The position numbers and the translations under genes are program-made. The notes beneath the pieces are model-generated. The model saw nothing but the letters and a program-made list of their open reading frames with translations, searched no databases and was not told where the DNA came from. Of a stretch of DNA of 64,000 nt, positions 17,054 to 55,121 are shown piece by piece. Numbering within the stretch: the first letter of the stretch is position 1; every line of letters starts with the position of its first letter. The DNA is taken from the NCBI RefSeq assembly GCF_003815715.1, contig NZ_CP033922.1, positions 186,001 to 250,000 on the forward strand, written 5' to 3'. This stretch comes from Chryseobacterium sp. G0162 (GTDB lineage Bacteria; Bacteroidota; Bacteroidia; Flavobacteriales; Weeksellaceae).

Positions 17054-17073
17054 CACCTATGTTTTTGGAGGTG

Positions 17074-23902: not shown

Positions 23903-23912
23903 ACTTATTCGG

Positions 23913-25337: not shown

Positions 25338-25339
25338 AT

Positions 25340-26893
25340 TTAATATCCCGGATTTTGGTGCAACGCTGTATTCGGCAATTCATTAAACGGAATGGGTAAA
25401 ATTTCATTTTTACCAGCTTTAAATCCTTTGAACGCAAGCTTTATAGGAGCATCACCCCATCTTACAAGATCAAACCATCGGTGTCCTTCACCGGCAAGTT
25501 CTCTCCTTCTTTCATCTTTTATTGCCTGCATAGAAACCGGAACCGAGCTTAATCCTACCCTTGCTCTTACCGCATCCAATAAAGCCTGAGCTCTCGCTCC
25601 TGATCCTCCCAAAGCCTCTGCCTCCATAAGATAGGTGTCAGCTAATCTTATGGCTACATAATTTTGTCTGAAGTTGAGTTCCGCTGCTCCGGGAAGTGAA
25701 CTTTTCAAATCATTGGTAGGTAAATATTTATTTAAAAAATATCCGGTATCTGAAAATGCAGGGCTATAAGTAACCTTATCCTCTGCTAACAACGGTTTCA
25801 TATTAAAAATAGTTGCATTCATTCGCGGGTCATCCTGCATAAAATTAAACAGGTCTTCAGTCACTGTATTAAATGCCCACCCCGGATATAAATCAGGAGC
25901 ATCATTATCTTTAATCTTTTTGTTAATGGAATAAGAACGGGGTCCCAGCATTGCATTGATAGAGTTTCCTTCATCTTTTCCCTGTCCCCAGAAACCCCAG
26001 TCAGAATTCCCTTTGTTGGTATGCATAACTTCCAGAATAGATTCCGTTGAAAACTTATAAGGATCTACCGTTTCTGGCCCTACTTTAAATAAATCTCCAT
26101 AATTTGCTACCAATTTGTATCCATATTGGCTGGTACCTCCCGGTGTACCGTTCACCTGTTCAAATTGTGCTGCGGCTTCCGGCATTTTCTTATCATAAAG
26201 ATAGATCTTTCCTAATATTGCTCTGGCTGTTCCCTGTGTAACTCTTCCTCTATCATTACCCGTAGCTATTAACATAAGATCAGGAAGTGCAGCAATGATA
26301 TCGTTTTCTATCTGCGTATAGACTTCGCCTGGTTTTGCCTGTGGAATGTTCCAATAATCATCATCAAATTTTACACTCTTAAGAACCAAAGGAATATTTC
26401 CAAACATCCTTACCAATTCAAAGTAATATAAAGACCTTAAAACCTTTGCTTCGGCACTGTATCGTTTTTTGAGACCTTCATCCATATTCGCTCCGGACAC
26501 TCTCTCCATTAAAAGATTGGCACGTGCTATACCCTGATAATAATCTCTCCAATAGCTTGCAGGCATTGTATTAGGGTTTAGTGAATAATTATTGATTCCC
26601 TGAATACCTGCCCCGTCATTAGAATTTCCACCTCCGGAATAAAAATCATCAGATCCGGCATTAAAAAAGGTAACTGTATTCTCAAATCCCCCGGAATATT
26701 TTCTTAAAATATCATATACAGAAACCAGTGCACTAAATGACTGTCTCTCATTCTGAAAATAAGTCTCTGTTTTAAAAGCTCCTGAATTCTGTACCTCATC
26801 CAGATAAGAACCACTACAAGCAATATTGCTAAAGCTCAGACCTGCCAAAAAAGTTACAGCAAGCCCTTTATATATAAAACTTTTATTTTTCAT
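25340..26893 (-). CDS. SusD/RagB family glycan-binding lipoprotein
   Basis: A 517-residue outer-membrane lipoprotein (lipobox SNIAC, Cys about 26). It has the SusD-like helical TPR fold, including NLLMERVSGANMDEGLKKRYSAEAKVLRSLYYFELVRMFGNIPLV and the C-terminal RRRELAGEGHRWFDLVRWG and EILPIPFNEL. SusD forms a lid over the SusC transporter and binds the oligosaccharide. It lies 11 bases after susC. The sugar is inferred from the co-operonic beta-glucanases. Confidence 0.95.
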   Translation of the reverse strand: MKNKSFIYKGLAVTFLAGLSFSNIACSGSYLDEVQNSGAFKTETYFQNERQSFSALVSVYDILRKYSGGFENTVTFFNAGSDDFYSGGGNSNDGAGIQGINNYSLNPNTMPASYWRDYYQGIARANLLMERVSGANMDEGLKKRYSAEAKVLRSLYYFELVRMFGNIPLVLKSVKFDDDYWNIPQAKPGEVYTQIENDIIAALPDLMLIATGNDRGRVTQGTARAILGKIYLYDKKMPEAAAQFEQVNGTPGGTSQYGYKLVANYGDLFKVGPETVDPYKFSTESILEVMHTNKGNSDWGFWGQGKDEGNSINAMLGPRSYSINKKIKDNDAPDLYPGWAFNTVTEDLFNFMQDDPRMNATIFNMKPLLAEDKVTYSPAFSDTGYFLNKYLPTNDLKSSLPGAAELNFRQNYVAIRLADTYLMEAEALGGSGARAQALLDAVRARVGLSSVPVSMQAIKDERRRELAGEGHRWFDLVRWGDAPIKLAFKGFKAGKNEILPIPFNELPNTALHQNPGY

Positions 26894-26904
26894 GTTATTA
26901 TGTA

Positions 26905-29820
26905 TTAAAATTGAATGTTTGCCCCCAGTAAGAATGTTCTTGCCTGTGGATAGTAAGCTCTGTCAACTCCGATAATATCTTGTTCAGAATTATTTCTTCC
27001 TGCAATTTCCGGATCATATCCAGTATATTTTGTAAAAGTGAAAAGGTTTTCTCCGGTGATATATAATCTCACTTTACTCATTCCAAATCGGCTGGTAACG
27101 TCTTGAGGAAGTGTATACCCCAACTGAATAATTTTTATACGTACATAATCTCCTTTCTGAAGGTAATAGTTAGACATCCATGAATAATTATGGTTAGGAT
27201 CATCCCTGGTCACTCTCGGACTTGTATTGGTAGAACCCTCTCCTGTCCATCGGTCTAAAATCTTTGTCTGATAATTCGCGTCAAGAATATCCAGTCTTCT
27301 TAATCCCTGGAAAATTTTGTTGCCAGCTTGCCCTTGAGCAAATATCATGAAATCAAAGTTTTTATAATTCATATTAACGGTAAGCCCAAAGGTATATTTT
27401 GGGATAGAACTTCCTAAATTCATTTTGTCTTCTTCATCAATTTTACCATCACCGTTATTATCCTGCCAGATAAAATCTCCTGGTTTAGCATTAGGCAACA
27501 GCTTACCACCACTAGCATTTACATAGGCATCAATTTGCGCCTGATTTTGAAACACACCACTGTAGGTCTGTCCGTAAAAAGATCCGTAAGGCTGCCCTAC
27601 CGCGACTCTTGATACAGCTCCCATCGTCTGGAAAGAGGCAAGATTGAAATAATCAATATCATTCTCTAATCGCAAAACTTTGTTTTTGATTGTTGCAAAA
27701 TTTCCGTTTACAGATATACTGAAGTCTTCCCAATTCTTTTTATATCCCAATTCGAGTTCCAATCCCGAGTTTTCCATATCCCCTACGTTTGACCAAGGTA
27801 AATTAGGAACCCCTACATAACCGGGAATGTTAATCTGTCTTAAAATATCAGTCGTTTTCTTCTTATACCAATCTGCGGTAAGAGTGAAATTATTGAATAG
27901 CTTAAAGTCTGCAGCAATATTCAGCTGGCTGGTTTGTTCCCATTTCAGATTTGGGTTTTCCAATGTGCTTGGAGCATATCCTATAATGATATTATTTCCT
28001 GAATTGGTATAGTTACTTCCTGAAACCATAAAACTTGCGAATCTGAAGTTCTCCATTTCATCATTTCCTAAAACACCATATCCTCCTCTTAGTTTCAAGC
28101 TATTAATCACCTTATTTTCTGGCCAGAAATCTTCTTTATGCGCATTCCATCCTAAAGACATAGACGGGAAAGTTCCCCAATGCTGGTTGGTGGCAAATTT
28201 TGAAGACCCATCTCTACGAATGGTTCCTGTAAATAAATATTTATCAGCATAATCATAAATAATTCTACCAAAATAAGAAGCTTTACGGGTTTGAATCCCA
28301 TCCCATCCTTTGGCTGTAATATCATCCTGAGGAATATCAAAATTAAAAGAAGCATCCTGCCAGCTATCAATAGGTAAATTACTGTAAGTTAAGCTGGCCC
28401 CACCTGATACATTATATCGATATACTCCTTGTCCTATCAAAATGCTTAAGTTGTGATCCCCAAATTTATTCTGATAGGTCAATGTATTTTCCATGCTCCA
28501 TTCAAACTTATTTTCATCCACTTTGTTCAGACTGTTGAAACCTGTATTTCTGTAGTTGGGGCTTAAATAATATTTAGGAGTAAAGGTGCGGCTTCCCCAA
28601 TACGATTTTTTACCATTTAAACTTGACTTGAAGGTAAAATGGTCAAGAAACTTAAGCTCAGCAAAAACATTTCCTACAAAATCATCAGACCAGTTGTAAT
28701 TTCCCTGCTGAATGGAACGAAAAGCTCTTGGGTTCGTCATTTCATTGTTTACATACCGCGAAATCCCGTACGGATTACCATTGGGATCACGAATGATATA
28801 AGGATCTGTGTAACCACTTGGATCTACCTTCGACCAATCTGTAACCACTTCCGGTGTAATTGGATCCAGGTTCACTGCAGAAGCTAAAGGCCCTCCATAT
28901 TCTTCATTAGCACTTACTCCCTGAGATTTGGTATGAGTATAAGCAAACGTTTGTCCTAACGTTAAATAATCTGTAACCTTGTGAGTGGAATTGAATCTGG
29001 CATTGATTCTTTTATAGTAGGATATATCAGTCATTACAATACCCGTCTGATCAAAATATCCAAACGATGTATAATAGCTTGATTTATCATTGCCTCCGGT
29101 AATACTTACTTCATGAGAGGATTTTTCTCCTGTTCCAAAAATAGTATCCTGCCAGTTTGTACCTTTTCCAAATGATTCAGGATTGGTGAAACGTGGGGCC
29201 TGTCCATCATTTACAAAACCTTCATTAATAATTTTTGCATACTGAGTGGCATCCAGAAGGTCCAATTTTTTAGACGCATTTGAGAACCCATAAAATCCAT
29301 TATAAGAAAGTACCAGTTTCCCTTTTTTCCCTTTTTTTGTGGTAACCAGAATTACCCCTTTTGCAGCAGAAACTCCATAGATTGCGGATGATGCCCCGTC
29401 TTTCAACACTTCAATACTTTCTATGTCAGATTGGTTAAGCCACCCGATATTATCCACTACAATACCATCTACTACCCATAACGGACTATTACTTCCGGCT
29501 CCAAAACTGGTAATACCACGGACTCGAACCGTTGCAGCAGCACCGGGCTGCCCGGAATTGGTAACGACAGAAACCCCTGCAGCCCTTCCCTGTAATACCT
29601 GTTCCGGCTTACCGGTTGGAATGTTTTCTATGTCACTCGCTTTAATACTTGCGATAGCTCCGGTTACATTAGACTTCTTCTGAGTTCCGTAACCAATGAC
29701 TACAATCTCATCTATTTTATTCTCTTTAGAAAGCGTGTCCTTTTTTGTCTGGCCACTGAAGTTAGCCGTAAAATAGAGGACGGCGATCACTCCTAAATTT
29801 CTCGATATTCTTACATTCAT
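26905..29820 (-). CDS. SusC/RagA family TonB-dependent outer-membrane transporter
   Basis: A 971-residue TonB-linked porin. After the signal peptide comes the TonB-box segment IDEIVVIGYGT (36-46). The plug follows (VLQGRAAGVSVVTNSGQPGAAATVRVRGITS in two stretches, SDIESIEVLKDGASSAIYG), then the 22-strand barrel ending in ARTFLLGANIQF. It lacks the N-terminal CarboxypepD_reg-like domain that most SusC proteins carry before the plug, so the plug begins almost directly after the signal peptide. It is the first gene of the glucan operon, facing the MFS/Nudix pair across a 178-base regulatory space. Confidence 0.95.
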   Translation of the reverse strand: MNVRISRNLGVIAVLYFTANFSGQTKKDTLSKENKIDEIVVIGYGTQKKSNVTGAIASIKASDIENIPTGKPEQVLQGRAAGVSVVTNSGQPGAAATVRVRGITSFGAGSNSPLWVVDGIVVDNIGWLNQSDIESIEVLKDGASSAIYGVSAAKGVILVTTKKGKKGKLVLSYNGFYGFSNASKKLDLLDATQYAKIINEGFVNDGQAPRFTNPESFGKGTNWQDTIFGTGEKSSHEVSITGGNDKSSYYTSFGYFDQTGIVMTDISYYKRINARFNSTHKVTDYLTLGQTFAYTHTKSQGVSANEEYGGPLASAVNLDPITPEVVTDWSKVDPSGYTDPYIIRDPNGNPYGISRYVNNEMTNPRAFRSIQQGNYNWSDDFVGNVFAELKFLDHFTFKSSLNGKKSYWGSRTFTPKYYLSPNYRNTGFNSLNKVDENKFEWSMENTLTYQNKFGDHNLSILIGQGVYRYNVSGGASLTYSNLPIDSWQDASFNFDIPQDDITAKGWDGIQTRKASYFGRIIYDYADKYLFTGTIRRDGSSKFATNQHWGTFPSMSLGWNAHKEDFWPENKVINSLKLRGGYGVLGNDEMENFRFASFMVSGSNYTNSGNNIIIGYAPSTLENPNLKWEQTSQLNIAADFKLFNNFTLTADWYKKKTTDILRQINIPGYVGVPNLPWSNVGDMENSGLELELGYKKNWEDFSISVNGNFATIKNKVLRLENDIDYFNLASFQTMGAVSRVAVGQPYGSFYGQTYSGVFQNQAQIDAYVNASGGKLLPNAKPGDFIWQDNNGDGKIDEEDKMNLGSSIPKYTFGLTVNMNYKNFDFMIFAQGQAGNKIFQGLRRLDILDANYQTKILDRWTGEGSTNTSPRVTRDDPNHNYSWMSNYYLQKGDYVRIKIIQLGYTLPQDVTSRFGMSKVRLYITGENLFTFTKYTGYDPEIAGRNNSEQDIIGVDRAYYPQARTFLLGANIQF

Positions 29821-33354: not shown

Positions 33355-33410
33355 ATTTTACTCACCTTCCAGAGAATTTAATATTCAATGAATAATTGTT
33401 ATTGTCCGAA

Positions 33411-33418
33411 TATTTTTG
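33411..33418 (+). promoter_or_regulatory. -7 box of the secreted alpha/beta hydrolase gene
   Basis: TATTTTTG matches TAnnTTTG and places the transcript start near 33424. This excludes the upstream in-frame TTG at 33396 as a start codon and supports the ATG at 33465. A -33 TTG at normal spacing is absent. Confidence 0.5.
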
Positions 33419-33464
33419 TGAATTTATTAAAGTTATTACCTTAACACTATTAAAAAATCACTAT

Positions 33465-35420
33465 ATGAAGAAAATAACAACTTTTTTAATAGGACTTACA
33501 GCTCCATTCTACTTTGCTCAACAGGCAGGAGACCTTGTAAGCGCCGAACAGAAACTGGATTTAACGCCGCAGGGAGTTATTAATTTTATTGCCAATAATC
33601 TTGGTGAACAAAATGCTCCGGACTTTGTAAATTATCTGAATGGTTTCAATGTGGGTTTAAAAGGATATAAAATAACCTATTATACCAAAAATGAAAACAA
33701 TATTCTTGTAAAAGCAACAGGTCTCCTGATGTATCCTAATGTCAATATGAAACTTTCCACCGTAGTTTCTGACCACGGAACTACTGATAGCAGGCATAAT
33801 GTTCCTTCCAATTTTAAAGGAACCCTGACAGCTGGATTTGTTGTAGAACTTTCTTATGTTCTCAACGGCTACATTTTAATGGCTCCCGATTATGTAGGAA
33901 TGGGTGACGGAGATGGTGTACATCCTTATGTAGATTATGCTACTGAAGCGGGTGCTACGATTGATTTTGTTACTGCAGCTAATAAAGCACTGACCCAATT
34001 GGGAGTAAAACGGTATGATGAATATTTCTTAGCAGGCTATTCACAAGGGGCTCATGCAGCAATGTCTACTCTAAAAAGGCTGAACGTTTCCAATCCCGGC
34101 AACCTGAAATTTAAGTATGCTTATATGGGAGACGGACCTTACGACATGTCGGAAACCACTTTAAAGAAAGGTGTTTTAGAAAAAGATATTTATCCGTTTA
34201 GTTCCTTCCTGGCCAATGTTCTTCACAGCTGTAACAATACAGGATATAAAACATATACTAATGATATTTCGGAAGTTATTTCCGCAGAATATCTTGACAA
34301 ATACAATTATCATGTTGTTCAGGACAACGGAGGTCTGCTGTGGGGACCGTTTCTATGGAGAAAAATGTTCACAACCAATTTTGTGAATGATGTGACCAAT
34401 AATCCCAATCATAAATTCAGACAATGTCTGAAACCTAAAGATGTATACGACTGGTATAATAAAACTCCTATGACGCTAGGCCATTCTACAGTAGATTTAG
34501 CCATTCCACCTGAAAATACTTCCAAAACTATTGATGTACAACGTGGTTATTATGCATGGTGGGATCTGAATAAATATAAACTGGACTCTTTCTACTGGGG
34601 ACCTATCGGGCATGTAGGAGGTACTGTTCCATTTGTTCTGGCTTCTAATGCTAAATTCAACACCTTAAGAAGCGGCGGTCTTTTTAATCAATGGGCTGTA
34701 GTGGGATCTATTTTTGGAAAACAGTCAACAGCATCTTCATCAGAAACGCCTACTCTATTTTCCTCCCAGATAAAACCTGACCTCGGAAATATGCAGTTGA
34801 TTGAAGTTACTGATTTCAATACAGAAAATGCTAGCAGCAGATCAGCAAATGATCGTAGCTTAACCACTTTAAAAGATGGTGTATATCTGTTAAAAGTATC
34901 GGAAAACCATAAGGATAAAATGCTTCCATACATCAAGAATACTCCTAAAGAAGTGGCTGAAAATGAAGTTGTACAATCGGAAAACAATTCAGTTTTAAAA
35001 TTAAAGATTGATGAGAACGAACTTTCAGCGGTTCATATTTTTGATGAAAATAAAAATCTGGTTCAAACCATTTCCAAAGATCAGTATCAGGAAAACAATG
35101 GCATTAACTTACAAGATCTGGATGCACAGAAATATACATTCGAAATAGTGACCTCCTATTATAATCTGCAGTTCAATAAAAATATTGGAAGTAACAAACT
35201 GGAAAACAGTACAGATATCTTTGCTCAGAACAAACAGATCAGAGCCAGAGCTAATAATAATATTAAAAATATCAGCATATACAGTATCTCAGGAACTTTA
35301 CTCCTTCAGCAGGATGTGAATTCGCAGCAATTCGAATCAAAAAACATGGAACAGGGAGTTTATGTAGTACAAATGACTCTTTCCAATGGAAAAACAATCA
35401 ATAAAAAAGTTAAACTATAG
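33465..35420 (+). CDS. T9SS-secreted alpha/beta hydrolase (lipase-like)
   Basis: A 651-residue secreted protein with a signal peptide (ITTFLIGLTAPFYFAQ). The hydrolase core spans about 60-420, with SDHGTTDS, LMAPDYVGMGDG and the nucleophile Ser193 in GYSQGAHAAM. It resembles secreted lipases and DAP-type esterases, with HVGGTVPFV a candidate for the catalytic His region. A beta-rich linker (about 440-580) and a C-terminal T9SS sorting domain (ISIYSISGTLLLQQ to KKVKL) follow. It is probably released at or anchored to the cell surface. The start is set by the signal peptide and the -7 box. Substrate (lipid or peptide ester) is unknown. Confidence 0.82.
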   Translation: MKKITTFLIGLTAPFYFAQQAGDLVSAEQKLDLTPQGVINFIANNLGEQNAPDFVNYLNGFNVGLKGYKITYYTKNENNILVKATGLLMYPNVNMKLSTVVSDHGTTDSRHNVPSNFKGTLTAGFVVELSYVLNGYILMAPDYVGMGDGDGVHPYVDYATEAGATIDFVTAANKALTQLGVKRYDEYFLAGYSQGAHAAMSTLKRLNVSNPGNLKFKYAYMGDGPYDMSETTLKKGVLEKDIYPFSSFLANVLHSCNNTGYKTYTNDISEVISAEYLDKYNYHVVQDNGGLLWGPFLWRKMFTTNFVNDVTNNPNHKFRQCLKPKDVYDWYNKTPMTLGHSTVDLAIPPENTSKTIDVQRGYYAWWDLNKYKLDSFYWGPIGHVGGTVPFVLASNAKFNTLRSGGLFNQWAVVGSIFGKQSTASSSETPTLFSSQIKPDLGNMQLIEVTDFNTENASSRSANDRSLTTLKDGVYLLKVSENHKDKMLPYIKNTPKEVAENEVVQSENNSVLKLKIDENELSAVHIFDENKNLVQTISKDQYQENNGINLQDLDAQKYTFEIVTSYYNLQFNKNIGSNKLENSTDIFAQNKQIRARANNNIKNISIYSISGTLLLQQDVNSQQFESKNMEQGVYVVQMTLSNGKTINKKVKL

Positions 35421-35459
35421 CATCAATCCTTTTTATATATCATTTTCAAGTTAATTTTG

Positions 35460-35485
35460 GCACTCCAGCAATGGAGTGCTTTTTT
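35460..35485 (+). terminator. Terminator of the alpha/beta hydrolase gene
   Basis: GCACTCCA (35460-35467) pairs perfectly with TGGAGTGC (35472-35479) around a GCAA loop and is followed by six T. Confidence 0.9.
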
Positions 35486-35895: not shown

Positions 35896-35914
35896 ATTTT
35901 AAATTATTCTAAAT
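35896..35914. promoter_or_regulatory. Fur-box-like palindrome before the TonB operon
   Basis: ATTTTAAATTATTCTAAAT is an imperfect 19-bp palindrome: 7 of 9 base pairs are symmetric around 35905. It matches at 17 of 19 positions the pattern ATTTAGAATTATTCTAAAT, which I recall upstream of iron-regulated genes in flavobacteria. It covers the area just upstream of the -33 position of the operon promoter, a usual place for repression. Fur binding is inferred. Confidence 0.5.
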
Positions 35915-35942
35915 AAAATTAGTAATCTTATCTGTGGCCTCC

Positions 35943-35950
35943 TACCTTTG
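35943..35950 (+). promoter_or_regulatory. -7 box of the TonB-DUF4876 operon
   Basis: TACCTTTG matches TAnnTTTG and ends 18 bases before the ATG at 35969. The -33 position shows only a TTA (35919-35921), so the promoter may need an activator or may be weak when the nearby palindrome is occupied. Confidence 0.5.
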
Positions 35951-35968
35951 CCGGAAGAATAATGCCAG

Positions 35969-38761
35969 ATGGTACCAAACGATCCTCGATTCCCTTTTAA
36001 AACACAAATTTTCACATTTTTATTTCTCACTGCATTTTCAACAGCTCAATCGCAAGACCGGTCTGCGACTGTTTCATTTGAAATAAAAAATAATCATTCT
36101 GAACCAGCAGCCGATTCAGAAATTAAAATTCTATCCGCTAAAACTATATACTCCGCCTCTACCAACGATAAAGGTGTTGCAGTTATTTCTGTTATCCCCG
36201 GTCAGTATACTATTGAAATTCATAAAAATAATATCGTTCAATATTCTGGTAAGATTACCATCACAAAACCTGAAGTATTTACCTTTTCACTGGCAGACAA
36301 AATCAATTCTATTGAAGAAGTGATTATTACAGCCAAAGAAAGTAAGGGGCTAACTTCATCTTCTGTCATCAATCAGCGTGCTATGCAGCATTTGCAGCCT
36401 TCCAGTTTTACAGATCTTCTGGAACTTCTTCCGGGAGGACGATCCGGAGACCCAGTTCTGAATCAGGTGAATAAAATAACGCTTCGTGAAACAGGTAACC
36501 CTGGCAATGATTACAATACTTCTGCCATGGGAACTACATTTCTGGTAGATGGTGCTCCATTGAACTCCGGGGCTAACCTTCAATATACCTATGATTTTTT
36601 AGACAAGAGCAATAACGGACTGAAAAGACGGCTCAATCTAACAAGCGGTGTAGATATGCGAAGCATTTCAACAGACCAGATTGAAAAAGTGGAGATTCTG
36701 CGTGGGATTCCTTCAGTAATTTACGGAAATCTTACCTCCGGAATTGTTAAAATCACCAATAAATCAGGATATACCCCATGGAAATCCAGATTTAAAGCAG
36801 ACGGTTACAGTAAATTATTTGCTATTAGCAAGGGATTTGAAGATAAGGAGCAAAACCTAAAAATCAATGCCGGAATTGATTATCTGAATGCTAAATCTGA
36901 TCCAAGAGACCAGCTGGAAAACTATAAAAGAATTACAGCCAATTTTGCTTTAGCAAAAGAAAAACAACGCAATCATGGCATATTCAGATGGCAGACCCAT
37001 TTGAGTTATACAGGTTCACTGGATGGTTCAAAGACCGATCCGGATGTAGATCTATCTCAATTAAATTCATATGAAGTCAACAATCATCTGGTAAGCCTTT
37101 CGAATGTATTTAATTACACAAAAACAGAACCTTCTTTTTACAGATCAACAGAGATTCAGGCAACCGTCAATCAAAGATTCGACAAAATAAAACAAACCAA
37201 ATTTATCCAGTTGGAAAACGCCACTGCTTTCCCACTTTCAAGAACTGAGGGTGAATACGATGGTTATTATCCTGAAGCTCGATACATTTCAGACTATACG
37301 GTAGATGGTAAACCGCTTGATATTTTTGTGAAAATGGTTAATAATTTCCAATGGAATTTTAAAGCTATAAAAAATGAAATCAACACAGGATTCGACTGGC
37401 AATTAAGCAAAAACTGGGGTCAGGGACAATTATTTGATGTTTATAAGCCTATAGATCCTAAAGCAACCTTCAGACCACGCGCCTATCGTGATGTTCCGGC
37501 CTATTCTACTTCTGCCTTGTTTTTAGAAACGATCAGCACGGCAAATCTTGGTCAGCATCAGCTGGCATTAGCATTGGGATTAAGAGGAAACTCAATGCTG
37601 AATCTTCCTACTCAGTTTAAAATGAACGGAAAAGTATATCTGGACCCAAGAATCAACCTTCAATGGAATCTTCCGGAATTCAGCCTGATGCATAAAAAGG
37701 CTCAACTTGCATTAACATTAGGCTATGGTAAACAGAGTTTATTCCCGGACCTTAATCTGCTATACCCGGAATTGATTTATAAAGATATCCAGCAACTCAA
37801 TTATTTCCATTCTAATCAGAATTATAGAAGAGTGAACTATAAAACGATGATCTATAATCCTCAGAACCCGGAAATAGAGCCTGCTGTCAATGAAAAGTTT
37901 GAGGCAAGGATCGATTTTAGCCTTGGGCTTCATCAATTATCCGTAACTGTTTTTAAGGAAAAGATGCACAACGCATTCCGGTCTATGAATGAATATGCTG
38001 GCTATCAATATAAAAAATACGATACCTCTGCTCTTAACCACGAAACCATAACTTCTCCACCAGATGTCAACACACTTCCCTATCAGCTTATAACAGAAAA
38101 CTTCATGTATTCTGCCCAGCGAAATGGAAGTAAAATAGACAAGGAAGGGGTGGAATTTCAATATTCTTCCAACAGAATACCTGCCATTAATACAAGATTT
38201 ACATTGAGTGGTGCCTGGTTTCGTACAAAATATGGGAACAGCCTGCCAGCCTACAAAAGACCTGATCTATTGATTAACGGGAGACCTTATCCTTATCTTG
38301 GTCTTTATAATGGAATGGAGCCTAATTCTGTAAACGAAATACTGAATACAAATCTGATGATGGATACCTACATTCCAAAGTTAGATCTGATCTTCTCTAC
38401 CTCTTTCCAGTTTTCATGGTATTCGATGAGAAAACTAGATCCGATGAACGGAATTCCAAGCCATTATGTAGATCAAAACGGTAATATATTCCCATTCGAC
38501 CCTGGTACAGCCAGAGAAACCATTCTTGAAAGATTGATTATTGCTCAGAATGGGGACCGGTATAACGCTACCAGAAGACCATTGGAAGCCAATCTTAATC
38601 TTAAGGTAACCAAAAGCTTCAGAAATAAGACTGTTATCGTTTCCATGTTTGCCAACAGACTTTTCAGTTATTACGCTCCTTATAGCGTTAATGGATTTAC
38701 GATCAACAGAAAAGGGACTTATGATCCGTATTTCGGGATGGAGATCAATTTCAATTTATAA
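35969..38761 (+). CDS. TonB-dependent receptor of the DUF4876/peroxidase operon
   Basis: A 930-residue outer-membrane receptor with a signal peptide (residues 10-28, ending TAQSQ). A CarboxypepD_reg-like domain follows at about 30-110 (YSASTNDKGVAVISVIPGQYTIEI), then a TonB-box-like SIEEVIITAKES (112-123). The plug (DLLELLPGGRSGDPVLNQVNKITLRE in two parts, IEKVEILRGIPSVIYGNLTSGIVKI) leads to a barrel ending in GMEINFNL. It is not SusC-like and has no SusD partner. It is the first of four tightly spaced genes ending with a di-haem peroxidase, behind a Fur-like box, which points to an iron- or haem-related ligand. The ligand itself is unknown. Confidence 0.92.
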   Translation: MVPNDPRFPFKTQIFTFLFLTAFSTAQSQDRSATVSFEIKNNHSEPAADSEIKILSAKTIYSASTNDKGVAVISVIPGQYTIEIHKNNIVQYSGKITITKPEVFTFSLADKINSIEEVIITAKESKGLTSSSVINQRAMQHLQPSSFTDLLELLPGGRSGDPVLNQVNKITLRETGNPGNDYNTSAMGTTFLVDGAPLNSGANLQYTYDFLDKSNNGLKRRLNLTSGVDMRSISTDQIEKVEILRGIPSVIYGNLTSGIVKITNKSGYTPWKSRFKADGYSKLFAISKGFEDKEQNLKINAGIDYLNAKSDPRDQLENYKRITANFALAKEKQRNHGIFRWQTHLSYTGSLDGSKTDPDVDLSQLNSYEVNNHLVSLSNVFNYTKTEPSFYRSTEIQATVNQRFDKIKQTKFIQLENATAFPLSRTEGEYDGYYPEARYISDYTVDGKPLDIFVKMVNNFQWNFKAIKNEINTGFDWQLSKNWGQGQLFDVYKPIDPKATFRPRAYRDVPAYSTSALFLETISTANLGQHQLALALGLRGNSMLNLPTQFKMNGKVYLDPRINLQWNLPEFSLMHKKAQLALTLGYGKQSLFPDLNLLYPELIYKDIQQLNYFHSNQNYRRVNYKTMIYNPQNPEIEPAVNEKFEARIDFSLGLHQLSVTVFKEKMHNAFRSMNEYAGYQYKKYDTSALNHETITSPPDVNTLPYQLITENFMYSAQRNGSKIDKEGVEFQYSSNRIPAINTRFTLSGAWFRTKYGNSLPAYKRPDLLINGRPYPYLGLYNGMEPNSVNEILNTNLMMDTYIPKLDLIFSTSFQFSWYSMRKLDPMNGIPSHYVDQNGNIFPFDPGTARETILERLIIAQNGDRYNATRRPLEANLNLKVTKSFRNKTVIVSMFANRLFSYYAPYSVNGFTINRKGTYDPYFGMEINFNL

Positions 38762-38781
38762 CAATTTCAAACCAATAAGTT

Positions 38782-40002
38782 ATGTTAAAACAATTATTTA
38801 GAACACTATTACTATTGTGTGCTGTATTAAGTCTTGCGGCATGTTCGTCAGATTCCGATGCCCCTGAAACTCAGGCACAAACTACGTTAAACCTTCAGCT
38901 GAAAGTAGTTCCGGAAAACATTCAGGTCAAAGAATATAAAACTCTTACGATAAGCTTTAAGGAATTGAATACCGGTTTTACAGCTACTGAGGTGCTTAAA
39001 AACACCAATTCTCTGAAAAAGGTTCTTCCAACGGGAACTTATAATATTACTGTGGAAGGAAGCATTATCTATACTGATAATTCGGTGGCCATAGAAGCAA
39101 AAGTAGGTGGAGTTCAGACCAGTGTTGTCATCAATGGCACTGAACAGACCAAAATTATTGACATTTCAATGAAAGCAGGAAGCAGCGACCTTATCCTTGA
39201 AGAAGTATTCTTTACGGGAACTAAAACTCCACAAGGAGCCATGTATTTTGGTGACCAATATTTTAAAATAACCAATAATACAGACAAAACATTATATGCT
39301 GACGGGATGTTGCTGATACAATCTGCATTTATGACGAATGAAAAGCAGGATTACAGTCCTAATATTATGGGAACCACATTTTCTGCCGGAGCCATCATCA
39401 GAATTCCAGGAAATGGAACAACGTATCCGGTATTACCTGGAGCCTCTATTATCATTGCAGAAGATGCCATTAATCATAAAGAATTCAATCCGTCATCCAT
39501 CAATTTATCTCACGCTAATTTCCAGATCTTCAAGGAAGACTCTGATGATATTGATAATCCTGCAGTCCCTAAAATGGTAAATGTATTTGAAAAAATGGTG
39601 ATCCACACGCAGGGATATTATGCTTACGCTTTAGCACGTATGCCACAGGGAATGACCAATGAGTCATTAATCAGTCAGAACTCATACACTTATACTTACA
39701 ATCTTACTTTCGAAGGAGATGTTTATCCTATGGACGGAACAGCTGTTAAAATTCCGAACGAATGGATCACAGATGCAGTGAACTTAAGTGTACAGGATTC
39801 TTTCCTATGGTTGGTTACTTCTCCTTCTTTAGACATGGGATGGACCTCAGTAACATCTTTTGATGGTGATAAAAACCGTTTTGGAAAAGCAGTCCGCAGA
39901 AAAGTTATCGGAAAAAATGCAGAAGGTAAAGACATCTTAAAAGATACCAATAACTCCACCGCAGATTTTGAACATGGTGTAAAACCGTCATTATTCAACT
40001 AA
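38782..40002 (+). CDS. DUF4876 domain lipoprotein
   Basis: A 406-residue lipoprotein with lipobox LAAC (Cys about 21). The body is beta-rich: an N-terminal sandwich-like part (LNLQLKVVPENIQVKEYKTLTISFKE) and then the DUF4876 region (LILEEVFFTGTKTPQGAMYFGDQYFKI, split here for length). The latter has conserved aromatic and glycine positions and a C-terminal FGKAVRRKVIGKNAEGKDI. It has no enzyme motif and no CxxCH. It lies 20 bases after the receptor gene and one base before the next, so it is surely cotranscribed. By analogy with SusD and other receptor-partner lipoproteins it may capture the ligand at the cell surface; that role is inference. Confidence 0.8.
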   Translation: MLKQLFRTLLLLCAVLSLAACSSDSDAPETQAQTTLNLQLKVVPENIQVKEYKTLTISFKELNTGFTATEVLKNTNSLKKVLPTGTYNITVEGSIIYTDNSVAIEAKVGGVQTSVVINGTEQTKIIDISMKAGSSDLILEEVFFTGTKTPQGAMYFGDQYFKITNNTDKTLYADGMLLIQSAFMTNEKQDYSPNIMGTTFSAGAIIRIPGNGTTYPVLPGASIIIAEDAINHKEFNPSSINLSHANFQIFKEDSDDIDNPAVPKMVNVFEKMVIHTQGYYAYALARMPQGMTNESLISQNSYTYTYNLTFEGDVYPMDGTAVKIPNEWITDAVNLSVQDSFLWLVTSPSLDMGWTSVTSFDGDKNRFGKAVRRKVIGKNAEGKDILKDTNNSTADFEHGVKPSLFN

Positions 40003-40003
40003 A

Positions 40004-41518
40004 ATGAAACATTTTCAATCCATACTGATCCTGCCTGCTCTTTTTCTTGGTTCTGAAATATATGGTCAGGACAATGATACAATCATGAAGAAGATTCGTG
40101 AGGAGTATAGCTATGAAAGGCTACTCAAAAACGACATCAACACCAATCCGGCCAATAGGTTGGGCTCAAGGAAGTATCAGATTACAGTTTTTAATATATT
40201 CACCCAAAACAATGATACTCCCAATGAAATCCAGCAAAAGGGCAAAGGAAAAAATCTCTGGGGTGCAGAAGCACGTACCCACCAGATATTGGATCCGAAA
40301 ACTGTAGTTTGGGGGAATGCTTCTTATTCACAAGGAAAAAACAAGCAGGTAGTATGGAATGAAAATGCTGATTATGACATCATTTACCCTTACGTAGCAG
40401 CAGACAGTGTGGGGGGCGACATGAAGTTTGAAAATTATGCATTTTCAGGGGGATATTCTAAGAAAATCAATTCATATACCCTGGGGATTACGGGAAGTTA
40501 CAGCGCTAGTTTGAGCTATCGTGATATTGATCCGAGGCCTAAGAATACTTCTGCTACCTTTTCATTGGCTCTGGGAGTTAATAAAATGATGTTTGAAAAG
40601 TTTAAAATCGGAGCTTATGTGGAAGCTGAAAAATATACCCAAAAGCATTATCTGAGTTTTGTAAGCAATCAGGGATTTCCAATGATCTACAATATGAACG
40701 GTCTGGGAAACTATAATGAACTGCTTTCAGGAAAACTTCGTCAGGCGTATTATGAGGGTTGGACTTATGGTGGTGGTTTACAAATTTTTGAAGCAGAAAA
40801 CAGATCATGGTATCTTACTGCGGGAATCAAGAAACTGAATCTTGATAAGCTTCTGACCGAATATGCAGATCTTAATGCCTCCAAAATTGATGAACAACAA
40901 TTTAATTTTTCATTAGGAAAGTTTTTTGAAACAGACAGAATCTCCTGGGGACTTTCTGTCATCGGAAACCATACCAACAGAAAAGGAACTGAGAACTTAT
41001 TTCTTAATGACAATTCAAGGAATTATATACAAATTGGTTCTGCAGAAAAATACACCCATCAGATAACCAATCTGGTATTAAAAGGGCTCTTAACAATGGA
41101 ACATCAAGATGCAAAATCGTCCCTGATTCCTTTCTTCGGATGGATTCAGGAAAAAGAAAAGTATAACACTCCTCTTTCTATCATTGATTTAAATAAACTG
41201 GTCTACGGCGCAGATTTTCAATGGCTGAAAACATTCACAGACAAACTTGCACTTTCTATTTCTGCGGGAGTTTCTGTAACGGATGTCTATAAAAAAAATT
41301 CGGTCTTCAATATTTCCGGAAAACCTGCTATTCAGCAAATGCTACAGGAAAATTACAAATATCAGTCTTCTGACATCTGGCAGGCCAAACTTGATCTTAA
41401 TTTTCATTTCAACGCTCCGGTTATTAAGAATGCTTATGTAGGGGGTAAAATGATGTACAGTAATTTCCAAAATGGTAACAATATGCTTTTTGCAGCAACC
41501 ATAGGAGGTATTTTTTAA
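40004..41518 (+). CDS. DUF6850 family outer-membrane beta-barrel protein
   Basis: A 504-residue protein with a signal peptide (SILILPALFLGSEIYGQ). Alternating aromatic strands fill most of the chain (YSLGITGSY-like and WYLTAGIKKLNL), and it ends in a C-terminal FAATIGGIF typical of outer-membrane barrels. It has no plug and no TonB box, so it is not a second receptor. Its place directly after the DUF4876 lipoprotein (one intergenic base), and before a peroxidase (9 bases), suggests a dedicated outer-membrane component of the same system. I recall DUF4876 and DUF6850 genes occurring together in Bacteroidota; function is unknown. Confidence 0.75.
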   Translation: MKHFQSILILPALFLGSEIYGQDNDTIMKKIREEYSYERLLKNDINTNPANRLGSRKYQITVFNIFTQNNDTPNEIQQKGKGKNLWGAEARTHQILDPKTVVWGNASYSQGKNKQVVWNENADYDIIYPYVAADSVGGDMKFENYAFSGGYSKKINSYTLGITGSYSASLSYRDIDPRPKNTSATFSLALGVNKMMFEKFKIGAYVEAEKYTQKHYLSFVSNQGFPMIYNMNGLGNYNELLSGKLRQAYYEGWTYGGGLQIFEAENRSWYLTAGIKKLNLDKLLTEYADLNASKIDEQQFNFSLGKFFETDRISWGLSVIGNHTNRKGTENLFLNDNSRNYIQIGSAEKYTHQITNLVLKGLLTMEHQDAKSSLIPFFGWIQEKEKYNTPLSIIDLNKLVYGADFQWLKTFTDKLALSISAGVSVTDVYKKNSVFNISGKPAIQQMLQENYKYQSSDIWQAKLDLNFHFNAPVIKNAYVGGKMMYSNFQNGNNMLFAATIGGIF

Positions 41519-41527
41519 GTAAAAAAC

Positions 41528-42664
41528 ATGAAATTTTCAGATATTAAATTAATACTGCTGATAGGCGTAATTGCTCTATTTTGCATGCAACATACTTTAC
41601 GAACCTACACTACAGATTATGGAGAGGTGGCAGCACAATACAAAAAACCTATACAGTATTGGCCTAAACCTTCCATAGATGGAGATGTCAACTGGAAAGA
41701 ATTTGAAGCAATAGAATGGGATTCCAATTATTATGAAACTCAGGAGCTTCCTGAGGTAATGCTGGGAAAAAAACTGTTCTTTGACCCGAAATTATCCTCA
41801 TCAAGTCAGGTTTCATGCAGCAGCTGCCATAATCCTGAATTAGGCTGGAGTGACGGGCAGGAAGTGGCATTAGGAAACGACCATCTGTTGGGAAAAAGAA
41901 ATACACAGTCCCTTTATAATATTGCAGACAGAGCTTCTTATTTCTGGGATGGAAGAGCTAAAACGCTGGAAGAACAACTTGTTGGTCCCATCTCTGCTCA
42001 CAACGAAATGAATATGAAACCGGAAAAACTGGCCGGGAAACTTTCAAAATATAAGGAATACAAACAACTTTTCAAGGATGTTTATCATACAGATAAGATT
42101 ACGTTTAACCAAATTGCCAGTGCCCTGGCTACTTTCCAGCGTACTCTCAGAAGCCAGCCGAGTAAACTGGATAAATTCATTAAAGGAGATCACAAAGCCA
42201 TGAGTGATAAGGAAATCTATGGGATGCACCTGTTTCGTACTAAGGCAAGATGTATGAATTGTCATTACGGTAAATATCTGACTGATGAATCATTTCACAA
42301 CATAGGACTCACTTATTACCAACGTGAATATGAAGACCTTGGGCTTTATCATATTACCAACAATCCCAATGATGTAGGCAAGTTTAAAACTCCTTCTTTA
42401 AGAGATCTGAATTACACCGCTCCTTGGATGCACAACGGATTAATGGATGATCTGCATGGAGTTGTTAATTTATACAATAGCGGAATGCAAATGATTAACC
42501 CCAGTCCTGAAGAAAAGAAGGCTGATCCTAAATTTCCGGTCACCGATCAAAGGATGAAGGCATTACAGCTCAATAATGAGGAGATAGATGCCATTGTGGC
42601 TTTTCTGAAAAGCATGTCAGGAAGTTATTATAAAATGCCGAGACCTGAAATTCCAAGACAATAA
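41528..42664 (+). CDS. Di-haem cytochrome c peroxidase of the TonB-DUF4876 operon
   Basis: A 378-residue exported or membrane-anchored protein (hydrophobic residues 7-20). Two haem attachment sites are CSSCH (97-101) and CMNCH (242-246), with the family segments LGKKLFFDPKLS, RNTQSLYNIA, YFWDGRAKTLEEQ and FKTPSLRDLNYTAPWMHNG. It has the usual CcpA/MauG length and lacks the large N-terminal domain of the other peroxidase at 11650-13479. It would reduce H2O2 or oxidise a bound substrate in the periplasm. As the last gene of an iron-box-controlled receptor operon it could process a haem- or iron-bound ligand or guard against peroxide during import. Confidence 0.92.
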   Translation: MKFSDIKLILLIGVIALFCMQHTLRTYTTDYGEVAAQYKKPIQYWPKPSIDGDVNWKEFEAIEWDSNYYETQELPEVMLGKKLFFDPKLSSSSQVSCSSCHNPELGWSDGQEVALGNDHLLGKRNTQSLYNIADRASYFWDGRAKTLEEQLVGPISAHNEMNMKPEKLAGKLSKYKEYKQLFKDVYHTDKITFNQIASALATFQRTLRSQPSKLDKFIKGDHKAMSDKEIYGMHLFRTKARCMNCHYGKYLTDESFHNIGLTYYQREYEDLGLYHITNNPNDVGKFKTPSLRDLNYTAPWMHNGLMDDLHGVVNLYNSGMQMINPSPEEKKADPKFPVTDQRMKALQLNNEEIDAIVAFLKSMSGSYYKMPRPEIPRQ

Positions 42665-42687
42665 ATTGGGCTAAAAGCTGGAAGAAG

Positions 42688-42733
42688 GAGGCTGGAAGTT
42701 ACGATGAACAAATGACTTCCGGCAGCCTTTTTT
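42688..42733 (+). terminator. Terminator of the TonB-DUF4876-peroxidase operon
   Basis: AGGCTG with AAGT on one arm and ACTT with CAGCCT on the other form a two-part stem around a loop of about 15 bases, followed by TTTTTT. It lies 23 bases after the peroxidase stop. Confidence 0.6.
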
Positions 42734-42823
42734 CATTAATTTAAAGGGGGTAAGCAGCATCTTCCCTAATCTTTTGGCTTCCTTACCTTAAAACAATCTC
42801 CAGCTTCTGGGTTCCTTACTCTC

Positions 42824-52181: not shown

Positions 52182-55121
52182 ATGAATTTGTTTAAAAAAT
52201 TAACAATCGTTACCAGTATTGCAGCAGCAAGTTTTGCAGGCCATGCTTTTGGACAGGACTATCAATGGAAGGAAGCAACTTCCAATGGATACAAATATAA
52301 GTTTGTCACCAATGACCCTACCGCCGCAAGATATTATACTTTAAAGAACGGATTAACGGTTATCTTAAGTCCAACCAACAAAGAACCGAGAATCCAAACG
52401 TATATTGCTACCAAAGCAGGAAGCAAAACCGATCCCGCAGATCACACAGGTCTTGCTCATTACCTGGAACATATGCTTTTCAAAGGAACGAATCAGTTCG
52501 GATCTAAAGACTGGGCGAAGGAAAAACCTCTTTTAGACCAGATTGATGCTCTTTATGAGAAATACAACCAGACCAAAGACGAAGCTACGAGAAAAGAAAT
52601 CTACAAAGAAATTGACAGGGTTTCCGGAGAAGCTGCCAAATACGCGATTGCCAATGAATATGACAAAATGATGGCTGGTATGGGTGCTGACGGATCAAAC
52701 GCTTTCACCTCTTTTGAACAAACAGTATACACGGAAGACATCCCTTCTAATGTTATGGATAAATTTCTGGCTTTGCAGTCAGAGAGATTTAGAGAGCCCA
52801 TTCTCAGATTATTCCATACAGAACTAGAAGCCGTATATGAGGAGAAAAACAGAACGCTTGATGATGATGGAGACAAGGTGTATGATATGATGTTTGCTAA
52901 TCTTTTCCCTAATAACAATTATGGGAAGCAGACTACCATCGGAACCATTGAGCATTTGAAAAACCCTTCTCTGCACGCGATCAGAGATTATTATAACAAT
53001 TATTATGTTCCCAACAACATGGGAATCATCATGTCGGGAGATTTCAATCCGGATGAAGCTATTGCCAAGATTGACAAAGCTTTCTCTTATATGAAATCTA
53101 AACCGGTTCCGGAATACAAAGTAGGACAGGAAAAAGCGATTACCTCTCCAGTCATAAAAGAAGTGGTAGGACCTGACTCTGAAAGTGTAATGCTTGGTTT
53201 CAGATTTCCCGGTGCTTCAACAAAAGATGCAAGACTATTAAATTTTGTAGGCAGCATGCTGACCAACGGGCAAGCTGGATTAATTGATCTTGATCTGGTG
53301 AAAAAACAAAAATTACTCGGAGCTTTTGCTTATCCTTATACCCTGAAAGATTATTCGGTATTACTTCTGCAAGGAAAACCAACTGAAGGACAGTCTTTGG
53401 ATGAAGTAAAAAATCTTCTTCTTCAGGAAATCGATAAACTAAGAAAAGGAGAATTCTCTGATGACCTTATTCAGTCTATCGTAAACAACGAAAAAAAGAA
53501 TACGATTCAAAAGGATGAAAAATATTCTTCAAGAGCAAGCATCTTAATGGATGAATTCACTTCTGAAGTAGATCATAAAGCCAACCTGGAGTATATTGAA
53601 GAAATCTCTAAGCTTACCAAGAAAGACATTATGGACTTCGTTTCCAAATATCTTCAAAACAACAATTATGTAGCGGTTTATAAGAAAAAAGGAGAAGATA
53701 AGAACATTGTCAAGGTTGACAAACCAACTATCACCCCTGTTTCTGTAAACAGAGAAGACCAATCCTCTTTTCTTAAGAAGATTGATGAGATGCCTGAAAA
53801 AGCAATCGCTCCGGTATGGTTAAACTACAACAAGGATATTGCTAAAAATAAATTAGGTGACGTAGAGGTTCTTTCTGTAAAAAATACAGACAATGCTCTC
53901 TTCAGAATGTACTACCACTTTGATTCCGGAAAATGGAACAATAAGATGCTTCCATTAGCTGCAGAGTACCTTCAATACCTGGGAACCAATGATAAGTCAT
54001 CGGAAACTATTAGCAGAGAATTCTATAAACTTGCATCAAGCTTTAAAGTAAGTGCAGGGAACGAGGAAACTTATGTTTCTCTGGAAGGTTTGAATGAAAA
54101 CTTCGATAAAACGATTGCTTTATTTGAAGATCTGATTAAAAACTGTAAAGCAGACCAGGCAGCATTAGATGCGTACAAAGCAAGACTTAAGAAAGCCAGA
54201 GCCAACGCAAAGCAGAATAAAGCCACCATCATGGCCGGATTAAGAAGCTACGCTCAATATGGAGCACAGAATCCGTTCAACAATGTTTTAAGTGATTCTG
54301 AACTTGATGCTTTGAAAGCTGAAGACCTTGTGAATATCCTTCATGATCTATTCAACTTCAAACATAGAGTTTTGTATTATGGACCTAAAACCGGAGCTGA
54401 GACGGTAGCTTCTTTAAAACCTATTCATAAACTTCCTTCAGCGCTTAAGGAACTTCCAAAGACAAAAACCTTTGAACAGATCCCGACAGATAAGAACAAA
54501 GTTCTATTTGCTCATTACGACATGGTACAGGCTGAAATTTTCTGGGCAAGAAACTCTGAACAGTACAACGCCGGTATTACCCCTACAGTAAGTTTATTCA
54601 ATAACTATTTCGGAGGCGGAATGGGATCTATTGTTTTCCAGACGATCAGAGAGTCTAAAGCACTAGCCTATTCTACTTATTCCTATTTTGCTCTTCCAAG
54701 TAAGAAAGCAGATAAAAACTCTATTATGGCGTATGTGGGGACTCAGGCTGATAAATTCAACGAAGCTTCTTCTGCCATGAATGAACTCCTGACTACCCTT
54801 CCAAAGTCTGAGCAATTGTTTGAAACAGCCAAAAGCGGATTGAAAAAAACAATCGCATCTGAAAGAATTTCTCAGGATGGTATCATTTTCTCTTATCTGA
54901 AAGCCCAAAGACTTGGAAATAACGCTGATATAAGAAAGAATGTCTACGAACAGGCACCTAAATTGTCATTTGCAGACATCAACACTTTCCATGATAACGA
55001 GATGAAAAACAAAAACTACACCTATTGTATCGTGGCATCACAAGACAAAGTAAATGAAGCCGATATGCAGAAATTAGGAGAGATTAAAAAACTCAATTTA
55101 ACTGAAATATTTGGTTATTAA
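52182..55121 (+). CDS. M16 family zinc metallopeptidase (pitrilysin type)
   Basis: A 979-residue exported protein (signal peptide about 1-24, ending HAFGQ). It is a full-length, two-lobe pitrilysin-like protein. The inverted zinc motif HYLEH is at 93-97 in GLAHYLEHMLFKGT, with the distal glutamate in ELEAVYEEKNR. The second M16 module (about 530-979) has GGGMGSIVFQTIRESKALAYSTYSYF and no zinc motif, as usual for the inactive half. It is probably a periplasmic peptidase of small peptides. It is followed by a strong terminator and may be cotranscribed with the aminotransferase gene. Confidence 0.94.
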   Translation: MNLFKKLTIVTSIAAASFAGHAFGQDYQWKEATSNGYKYKFVTNDPTAARYYTLKNGLTVILSPTNKEPRIQTYIATKAGSKTDPADHTGLAHYLEHMLFKGTNQFGSKDWAKEKPLLDQIDALYEKYNQTKDEATRKEIYKEIDRVSGEAAKYAIANEYDKMMAGMGADGSNAFTSFEQTVYTEDIPSNVMDKFLALQSERFREPILRLFHTELEAVYEEKNRTLDDDGDKVYDMMFANLFPNNNYGKQTTIGTIEHLKNPSLHAIRDYYNNYYVPNNMGIIMSGDFNPDEAIAKIDKAFSYMKSKPVPEYKVGQEKAITSPVIKEVVGPDSESVMLGFRFPGASTKDARLLNFVGSMLTNGQAGLIDLDLVKKQKLLGAFAYPYTLKDYSVLLLQGKPTEGQSLDEVKNLLLQEIDKLRKGEFSDDLIQSIVNNEKKNTIQKDEKYSSRASILMDEFTSEVDHKANLEYIEEISKLTKKDIMDFVSKYLQNNNYVAVYKKKGEDKNIVKVDKPTITPVSVNREDQSSFLKKIDEMPEKAIAPVWLNYNKDIAKNKLGDVEVLSVKNTDNALFRMYYHFDSGKWNNKMLPLAAEYLQYLGTNDKSSETISREFYKLASSFKVSAGNEETYVSLEGLNENFDKTIALFEDLIKNCKADQAALDAYKARLKKARANAKQNKATIMAGLRSYAQYGAQNPFNNVLSDSELDALKAEDLVNILHDLFNFKHRVLYYGPKTGAETVASLKPIHKLPSALKELPKTKTFEQIPTDKNKVLFAHYDMVQAEIFWARNSEQYNAGITPTVSLFNNYFGGGMGSIVFQTIRESKALAYSTYSYFALPSKKADKNSIMAYVGTQADKFNEASSAMNELLTTLPKSEQLFETAKSGLKKTIASERISQDGIIFSYLKAQRLGNNADIRKNVYEQAPKLSFADINTFHDNEMKNKNYTYCIVASQDKVNEADMQKLGEIKKLNLTEIFGY

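Follow-up and report, generated by a model that had tools for sequence, protein, structure and literature searches.

An iron-box TonB operon of Chryseobacterium sp. G0162, a likely copy of a Bacteroidota-wide cassette with an exchangeable last gene

A four-gene operon behind a putative Fur site

We analysed a 64,000-nucleotide stretch of the Chryseobacterium sp. G0162 genome (NZ_CP033922.1, positions 186,001 to 250,000; the window), which carries a plus-strand operon encoding a TonB-dependent receptor (TBDR), a DUF4876 lipoprotein, a DUF6850 outer-membrane beta-barrel and a MauG/MbnH-type di-haem enzyme, preceded by a Fur-type box (Table 1). The operon is best explained as a copy of a TonB-dependent cassette that is repressed by iron and widespread in Bacteroidota. 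New here is that the slot after the first three genes, the trio, takes one of four alternative modules; we found no paper on the DUF4876-DUF6850 unit or on a swappable slot in the open-licence papers searched.

The four genes are separated by 20, 1 and 9 bases and are followed by a hairpin whose folding energy was equalled by none of 200 shuffled sequences, although a consensus scan restricted to loops of 3-8 missed this terminator. The upstream neighbour (33396-35420) encodes a lipase-like protein with a type IX secretion system (T9SS) sorting tail and is followed by a terminator-like site (35459-35480), of a kind no commoner here than in shuffled sequence, while the gene 3' of the operon lies on the opposite strand. 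These two boundaries limit the unit to four genes. An earlier note, made from the sequence alone, had described four plus-strand genes with these gaps, a terminator and a Fur-type palindrome, and the open reading frames, Pfam matches and folding energy all agree with it. Because the same arrangement of genes is met again throughout the phylum and the 19-mer is kept in orthologous promoters, we regard the operon as more than a chance arrangement. The genome (5.28 Mb, one contig) has a second full cassette.

Table 1. Features of the operon, in window coordinates
Feature	Position	Strand	Basis
Fur-type box ATTTTAAATTATTCTAAAT	35896-35914		palindrome; conservation; recurrence before iron genes
TAnnTTTG promoter box TACCTTTG	35943-35950	+	motif match
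TonB-dependent receptor gene	35969-38761	+	930 aa; Pfam Plug 45.2 bits, E 1.5e-11
DUF4876 lipoprotein gene	38782-40002	+	406 aa; Cys21 conserved; Pfam 193.3 bits
DUF6850 outer-membrane beta-barrel gene	40004-41518	+	504 aa; Pfam 262.5 bits
MauG/MbnH-type di-haem enzyme gene	41528-42664	+	378 aa; Pfam CCP_MauG 179.2 bits, E 1e-52
Intrinsic terminator	42679-42735	+	hairpin with T run, -28.6 kcal/mol, z -6.75

The Fur-type box equals its own reverse complement at 14 of 19 positions and is the sole site in the window within 3 mismatches of ATTTWGAATNATTCWAAAT. The TAnnTTTG element behind it matches what we take to be the Bacteroidota -7 consensus. Among 11 orthologous promoters the 19-mer is unchanged in eight and differs by one base in three (L038, L081 and L084), and in close orthologues it lies ~73 bases before the start. 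Furthermore, matches to ATTTAGAATNATTCTAAAT with at most 4 mismatches were found in 50 of 124 cassette upstream regions, mostly from Flavobacteriia and Pedobacter, compared to 2.1% of shuffled regions. In the genome itself a relaxed box pattern gave 35 sites, against 6 for a reversed control pattern. We inspected the neighbouring genes for 26 of the 34 other sites and ran Pfam on ten of these genes, which encode four TonB receptors, HmuY, a siderophore-interacting protein and a PepSY_TM protein, the remainder being a radical SAM protein (HemN by sequence reading), a fumarase and a T9SS-sorted protein. The receptor gene of the second cassette also carries a Fur-type box. The coherence of this regulon suggests that the 19-bp palindrome is a putative Fur site and, at the level of sequence, is consistent with the iron-controlled TonB operon proposed earlier. 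The HmuY locus is separate from the cassette and stands under the same kind of box, so that haem, which the earlier note had considered as a ligand, is possible but not favoured.

Iron-responsive expression has been published for related loci. In the table rows of PMC10434189, three loci that share a TBDR and DUF4876 are up in low iron, namely BT3625-BT3633 of Bacteroides thetaiotaomicron (~37-128-fold), BT1933-BT1939 (3.5-7.4-fold) and PG1019-PG1022 of Porphyromonas gingivalis (20.8-214.5-fold). BT3625-BT3633 encode, among others, PepSY, DUF4857 and ABC ATPase proteins, and BT1933-BT1939 a HEAT-repeat protein; no peroxidase is named in these rows, where some products are given as 'hypothetical'. 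In excerpts of a hemin-availability study, the DUF4876 gene of another P. gingivalis strain shows a log2 change of -5.42 (PMC10470040). Passages of an Elizabethkingia iron transcriptome (PMC7221216) name no gene that could be matched to the cassette, the word 'peroxidase' does not occur in the main text of a Riemerella paper (PMC5429918), and sections of a Flavobacterium paper (PMC6610971) showed no link to the cassette.

The DUF4876 and DUF6850 proteins pass their Pfam gathering thresholds (27.9 bits for PF16215 and 27 bits for PF21012). An AlphaFold model with a pLDDT of 88.7 predicts DUF6850 to be a barrel, in line with the earlier assignment, and a viral fold library matched mostly generic outer-membrane barrels. 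The earlier statement that neither family has a described function holds, in that none was found in open-licence papers, where a search for DUF6850 gave no match; for DUF4876, however, there is a crystal structure (4q1z, BT_1938) and there are the iron-repressed loci in the rows of PMC10434189. For the receptor, we compared a profile of 27 cassette receptors with sequences from the PDB. Its two top rows, 9gbc_A (residues 7-150) and the SusC homologue 8aa4 (12-114), fall mostly on the N-terminal domain, and the plug (110-261) gives matches to ferric enterobactin receptors at E 5.6e-11.

Conservation of the cassette and its exchangeable slot

Among 246 genomes of the bacterium's own family, DUF4876 scores over the cut-off in 93 and DUF6850 in 94. 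Of the 117 DUF4876 rows (two of which, in G207, are pieces of one gene), 116 have DUF6850 on their own strand no more than 3 kb downstream, and a di-haem gene lies within 5 kb of at least 109, counting DUF6850 rows over the cut-off (10 sub-cut-off rows excluded) and di-haem rows to E 1.2e-90. In 296 phylum-wide genomes each DUF is over the cut-off in 29, with 27 genomes common to both. The 139 loci that we mapped contain 141 cassettes, 133 of them non-redundant and 125 followed by 1.2 kb or more of sequence beyond the core. No locus set is a random sample: two sets of 20 were hand-picked from the family (L032-L051) and phylum-wide (L052-L071) DUF4876 matches, 20 more from a third list (L156-L175), and L077-L155 are the best 79 of at least 490 relatives. 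Of the 125 non-redundant cassettes, 120 have both the receptor and DUF6850; among the five exceptions (L041, L042, L102, L110 and L150), four involve loci that are broken or truncated at a contig end. Gaps in the mapped loci are mostly below 35 bases. Thus the conserved linkage that a gene-neighbourhood check was meant to reveal is found, with an order that recurs across the phylum, and DUF4876 emerges as the constant neighbour of the receptor.

This linkage bears on whether the di-haem gene is a mere passenger in a plain siderophore or haem receptor operon. The resemblance of the receptor plug to siderophore receptors, the putative Fur control and the existence of cassettes without any module would all fit such an operon. 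However, at least 109 of 117 di-haem neighbours and short gaps are hard to reconcile with a passenger, the same gene type occurs in distant families (L054, L064, L065 and L068), and a separate HmuY locus is available for haem; we therefore consider this explanation very unlikely.

Several loci depart from the common arrangement. Cassettes of G004 and G048 lack the di-haem gene, and a close homologue lies ~0.8 and 1.8 Mb away, respectively. A close di-haem homologue occurs with no DUF4876 match in G103, G149, G161, G223, G224, G112, G055, G018 and G203, and in G149 a DUF6850 remnant adjoins it. All four cassette genes of L095 (Chryseobacterium sp. E1) are split into frames, through decay or poor assembly, and L043, L044 and L094 have two or three tandem DUF4876 genes per cassette.

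Behind the trio, the 125 cassettes carry a MauG-type di-haem gene in 53 cases (one of them, L095, broken), an M16 peptidase in 19, a set of ABC, PepSY, DUF4857 and OB-fold-like proteins in 17, a HEAT-repeat protein of ~730 aa (HEAT/C25-like) in nine and no recognised module in 27. No cassette has two modules within the 4.5 kb scanned downstream. The count was made on the same strand with DUF4876 pieces below 200 aa excluded, and the ABC module was scored when any one of its four marker proteins was present. Among eight HEAT proteins scanned, two matched Peptidase_C25, both below the cut-off, so that the C25 likeness is a lead only.

The modules are distributed unevenly between lineages, as assigned from record titles (one of which reads only 'bacterium'). 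A di-haem gene is present in 33 of 34 named, non-duplicate cassettes of Flavobacteriia and Sphingobacteriia, the exception being Capnocytophaga L094, and in four of 19 phylum-wide cassettes outside the family of G0162. In contrast, it is in none of 34 named Bacteroidales-type cassettes (M16 19, ABC 7, none 8) and none of a further order-wide set of 18 (ABC 9, HEAT 6, none 3). The earlier note had counted the di-haem gene among the four members of the operon; across the phylum it is instead an exchangeable module. Well-supported branches of a receptor tree of 117 rows force at least four di-haem, six M16, six ABC and three HEAT changes, and thus the modules have been exchanged and not only inherited. 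The tree was built with FastTree, which gave local support values and warned of uneven base or residue composition and of long branches, L068 among them.

Over long alignments, the cassette M16 proteins share ~30-91% identity with three reference copies and only ~21-27% with the generic M16 peptidase encoded elsewhere in the window, from which, by sequence, they form a separate family. The start of the M16 gene is at most 150 bases from the end of the core in 17 of 19 cassettes, the exceptions being L142 (1.9 kb) and L149 (3.9 kb); the M16 frame of L141 begins 147 bases inside the core and the M16 of L154 is in pieces. We had considered the window's M16 peptidase (52182-55121, plus strand, 979 aa) as a partner acting in trans, and dropped it on the low identity just given. 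Two divergent cassettes have a gene for a DUF4920-type protein after the di-haem gene (L035:3974-4456 and L039:3080-3562, both minus strand), called by Pfam for L035 and by similarity for L039; compared with the 194-aa protein of the Bacteroides-type set, DUF4920 gave an HHalign probability of 14.5%, with two DUF4920 rows only. In L055 (8430-9646, plus strand), peroxiredoxin-like and Dps-like genes, named by eye, stand directly behind a module-less cassette.

The di-haem enzyme

The di-haem enzyme has CxxCH haem motifs at residues 97 and 242, and its Y316 aligns with position 294 of the MauG chain and with a Tyr of MbnH. Tyr294 of MauG is an axial haem ligand, and bacterial di-haem peroxidases (bCCP) have a Met there, the distal ligand of the C-terminal haem. 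Y316 is invariant in 22 of 22 cassette copies (the window and 21 loci), and by sequence the enzyme is not a Met-ligated peroxidase. It resembles MauG and MbnH in the two CxxCH motifs and, by alignment, in the Tyr at the second haem, and it differs in falling under both NCBIfam cut-offs (220.3 of 443.85 bits for MauG and 205.1 of 362.85 for MbnH). An N-terminal WPxP motif is present in four aligned cassette copies and not in three paralogues, and the Trp of this motif, W45, does not vary among the 22 copies. A second CCP_MauG protein of 609 aa with a long N-terminal part is encoded in the window at 11650-13479 (minus strand); the genome has five.

The earlier note took the enzyme for a di-haem peroxidase that modifies the ligand or removes peroxide; the Tyr at the second haem reduces simple peroxide use to one option among others. 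In such a role it would remove periplasmic H2O2 where iron arrives, and anaerobes, which meet little peroxide, would do without it. The near-constant presence of the gene in Flavobacteriia and Sphingobacteriia and its absence from Bacteroidales-type cassettes agree with this, as does the fact that the highest-scoring PDB chains are di-haem peroxidases, matching residues 74-319 at most. Peroxide defence nevertheless does not account for the Tyr in place of Met, nor for M16, ABC and HEAT modules that occupy the same position and were in no case seen together with a di-haem gene, and we consider it unlikely.

MauG and MbnH oxidise partner proteins. By analogy, the enzyme could modify a residue, such as a Trp, of DUF4876, the receptor or DUF6850 and so create a metal or ligand site. 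MauG and MbnH are its best NCBIfam matches, MbnH is the best PDB match for the C-terminal part (from residue 231), and possible partner genes adjoin; the known MADH partner was not found here, and MbnP was not searched for. However, the trio occurs without the enzyme in many genomes, and in an alignment set of 42 DUF4876, 40 DUF6850 and 38 receptor sequences no Trp separated the cassettes by a criterion of 90% where the enzyme is present against 40% where it is absent. Only D136, Y350 and K448 did so. Covariation still leaves room for maturation, which we judge quite improbable.

A cassette that may process its imported ligand

The cassette very probably imports iron. Our tentative preference, just short of an even chance, is for a TonB importer under Fur control, in which the product of the last gene processes the iron ligand brought in. 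Under iron shortage Fur repression would be lifted and the operon switched on; the receptor and the surface lipoprotein DUF4876 would bind an iron-bearing ligand, to be imported with TonB energy, and DUF6850, as a second barrel, would assist at the outer membrane. The last gene would be a processing module acting on the cargo. In aerobic lineages this would mostly be the MauG-type enzyme, presumably periplasmic, which would set iron free by oxidising or otherwise altering the ligand or the iron centre it carries. The slot of anaerobic lineages would often be taken by an M16 peptidase, a HEAT/C25-like protein or an ABC/PepSY set. That one slot accepts a protease, a MauG-type enzyme or a set of transporter genes suggests that cargo is processed. 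That the di-haem enzyme in particular acts on the imported ligand is plausible at nearly even confidence, and that the ligand is a protein or peptide is somewhat unlikely.

XusABC, HmuYR and SusCD are pairs of a TBDR and a surface lipoprotein; the cassette shares this pairing, with DUF4876 being another family and DUF6850 and the processing module being extra. The Fus (FusA/FusC/FusD, the last an ABC protein) and YddB/PqqL systems combine an iron-controlled TBDR operon with a processing gene, a combination that the cassette probably shares. In a survey of Proteobacteria, as described in sections of Grinter et al. (PMC6793856), FusA-like loci often carry the M16 protease FusC, and multiple loci that lack FusC encode a cytochrome c peroxidase, which these authors suggest may free an iron cofactor without proteolysis. 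The cassette slot holds the same two gene types; the operon in the window has the di-haem gene in place of the M16 gene found in 19 related cassettes. Unlike Fus, the cassette belongs to Bacteroidota, has a receptor without detected FusA kinship and nearly always includes DUF4876 and DUF6850. That this M16/peroxidase alternation comes back in another phylum, with what appears to be a different receptor family, is our best indication of a cargo-processing role for the di-haem enzyme. We go further only speculatively, and think it distinctly unlikely, in proposing that the cassette is a phylum-wide Bacteroidota counterpart of Fus, with an apparently unrelated receptor, for import of iron-bearing proteins or peptides, in which a MauG-type enzyme of aerobes replaced M16 and frees iron by oxidation.

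Several points weigh against a processing importer. The choice of module goes largely with lineage and may be a matter of oxygen rather than cargo. The 27 module-less cassettes, together with 8 of the 117 DUF4876 rows that have no nearby di-haem gene among the matches listed, imply that neither the di-haem gene nor any module is essential. Tyr is also found in two of three non-cassette CCP_MauG proteins of this genome, the third having Phe, and therefore marks a broad clade rather than the cassette alone. The receptor profile, in a sequence search that remote kin can escape, brought up neither a FusA nor a YddB chain at E 0.01 and so gives no sign of descent from Fus. In passages of PMC6793856, the ferredoxins and globins tried as substrates all stayed uncleaved by PqqL, and growth in iron-limited LB was not supported by PqqL/YddB, which leaves the Fus model itself unproven outside Pectobacterium. 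As to control, upstream regions from Bacteroidales match ATTTAGAATNATTCTAAAT at up to 4 mismatches only in L140, in contrast to the published iron control there; the sole perfect box match in the genome precedes a gene without an obvious iron link, as do others, and three sites lie inside genes.

If the cassette does process its cargo, replacement of M16 by a MauG-type enzyme in Bacteroidota would parallel the exchange described for Proteobacteria and repeat, in a second phylum, the alternation in Fus-like loci. Two families without a described function are joined into one phylum-wide unit that spans environmental bacteria and gut and oral Bacteroidales, and the reason for a di-haem enzyme in an iron operon becomes a testable question.

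Elsewhere in the window, a minus-strand region (21680-29820) encodes a TonB receptor, a SusD-like protein, GH30 and GH3 and resembles a polysaccharide utilisation locus, and a further minus-strand gene (15779-17056) encodes a Bacteroidota protein with YadA-head repeats.

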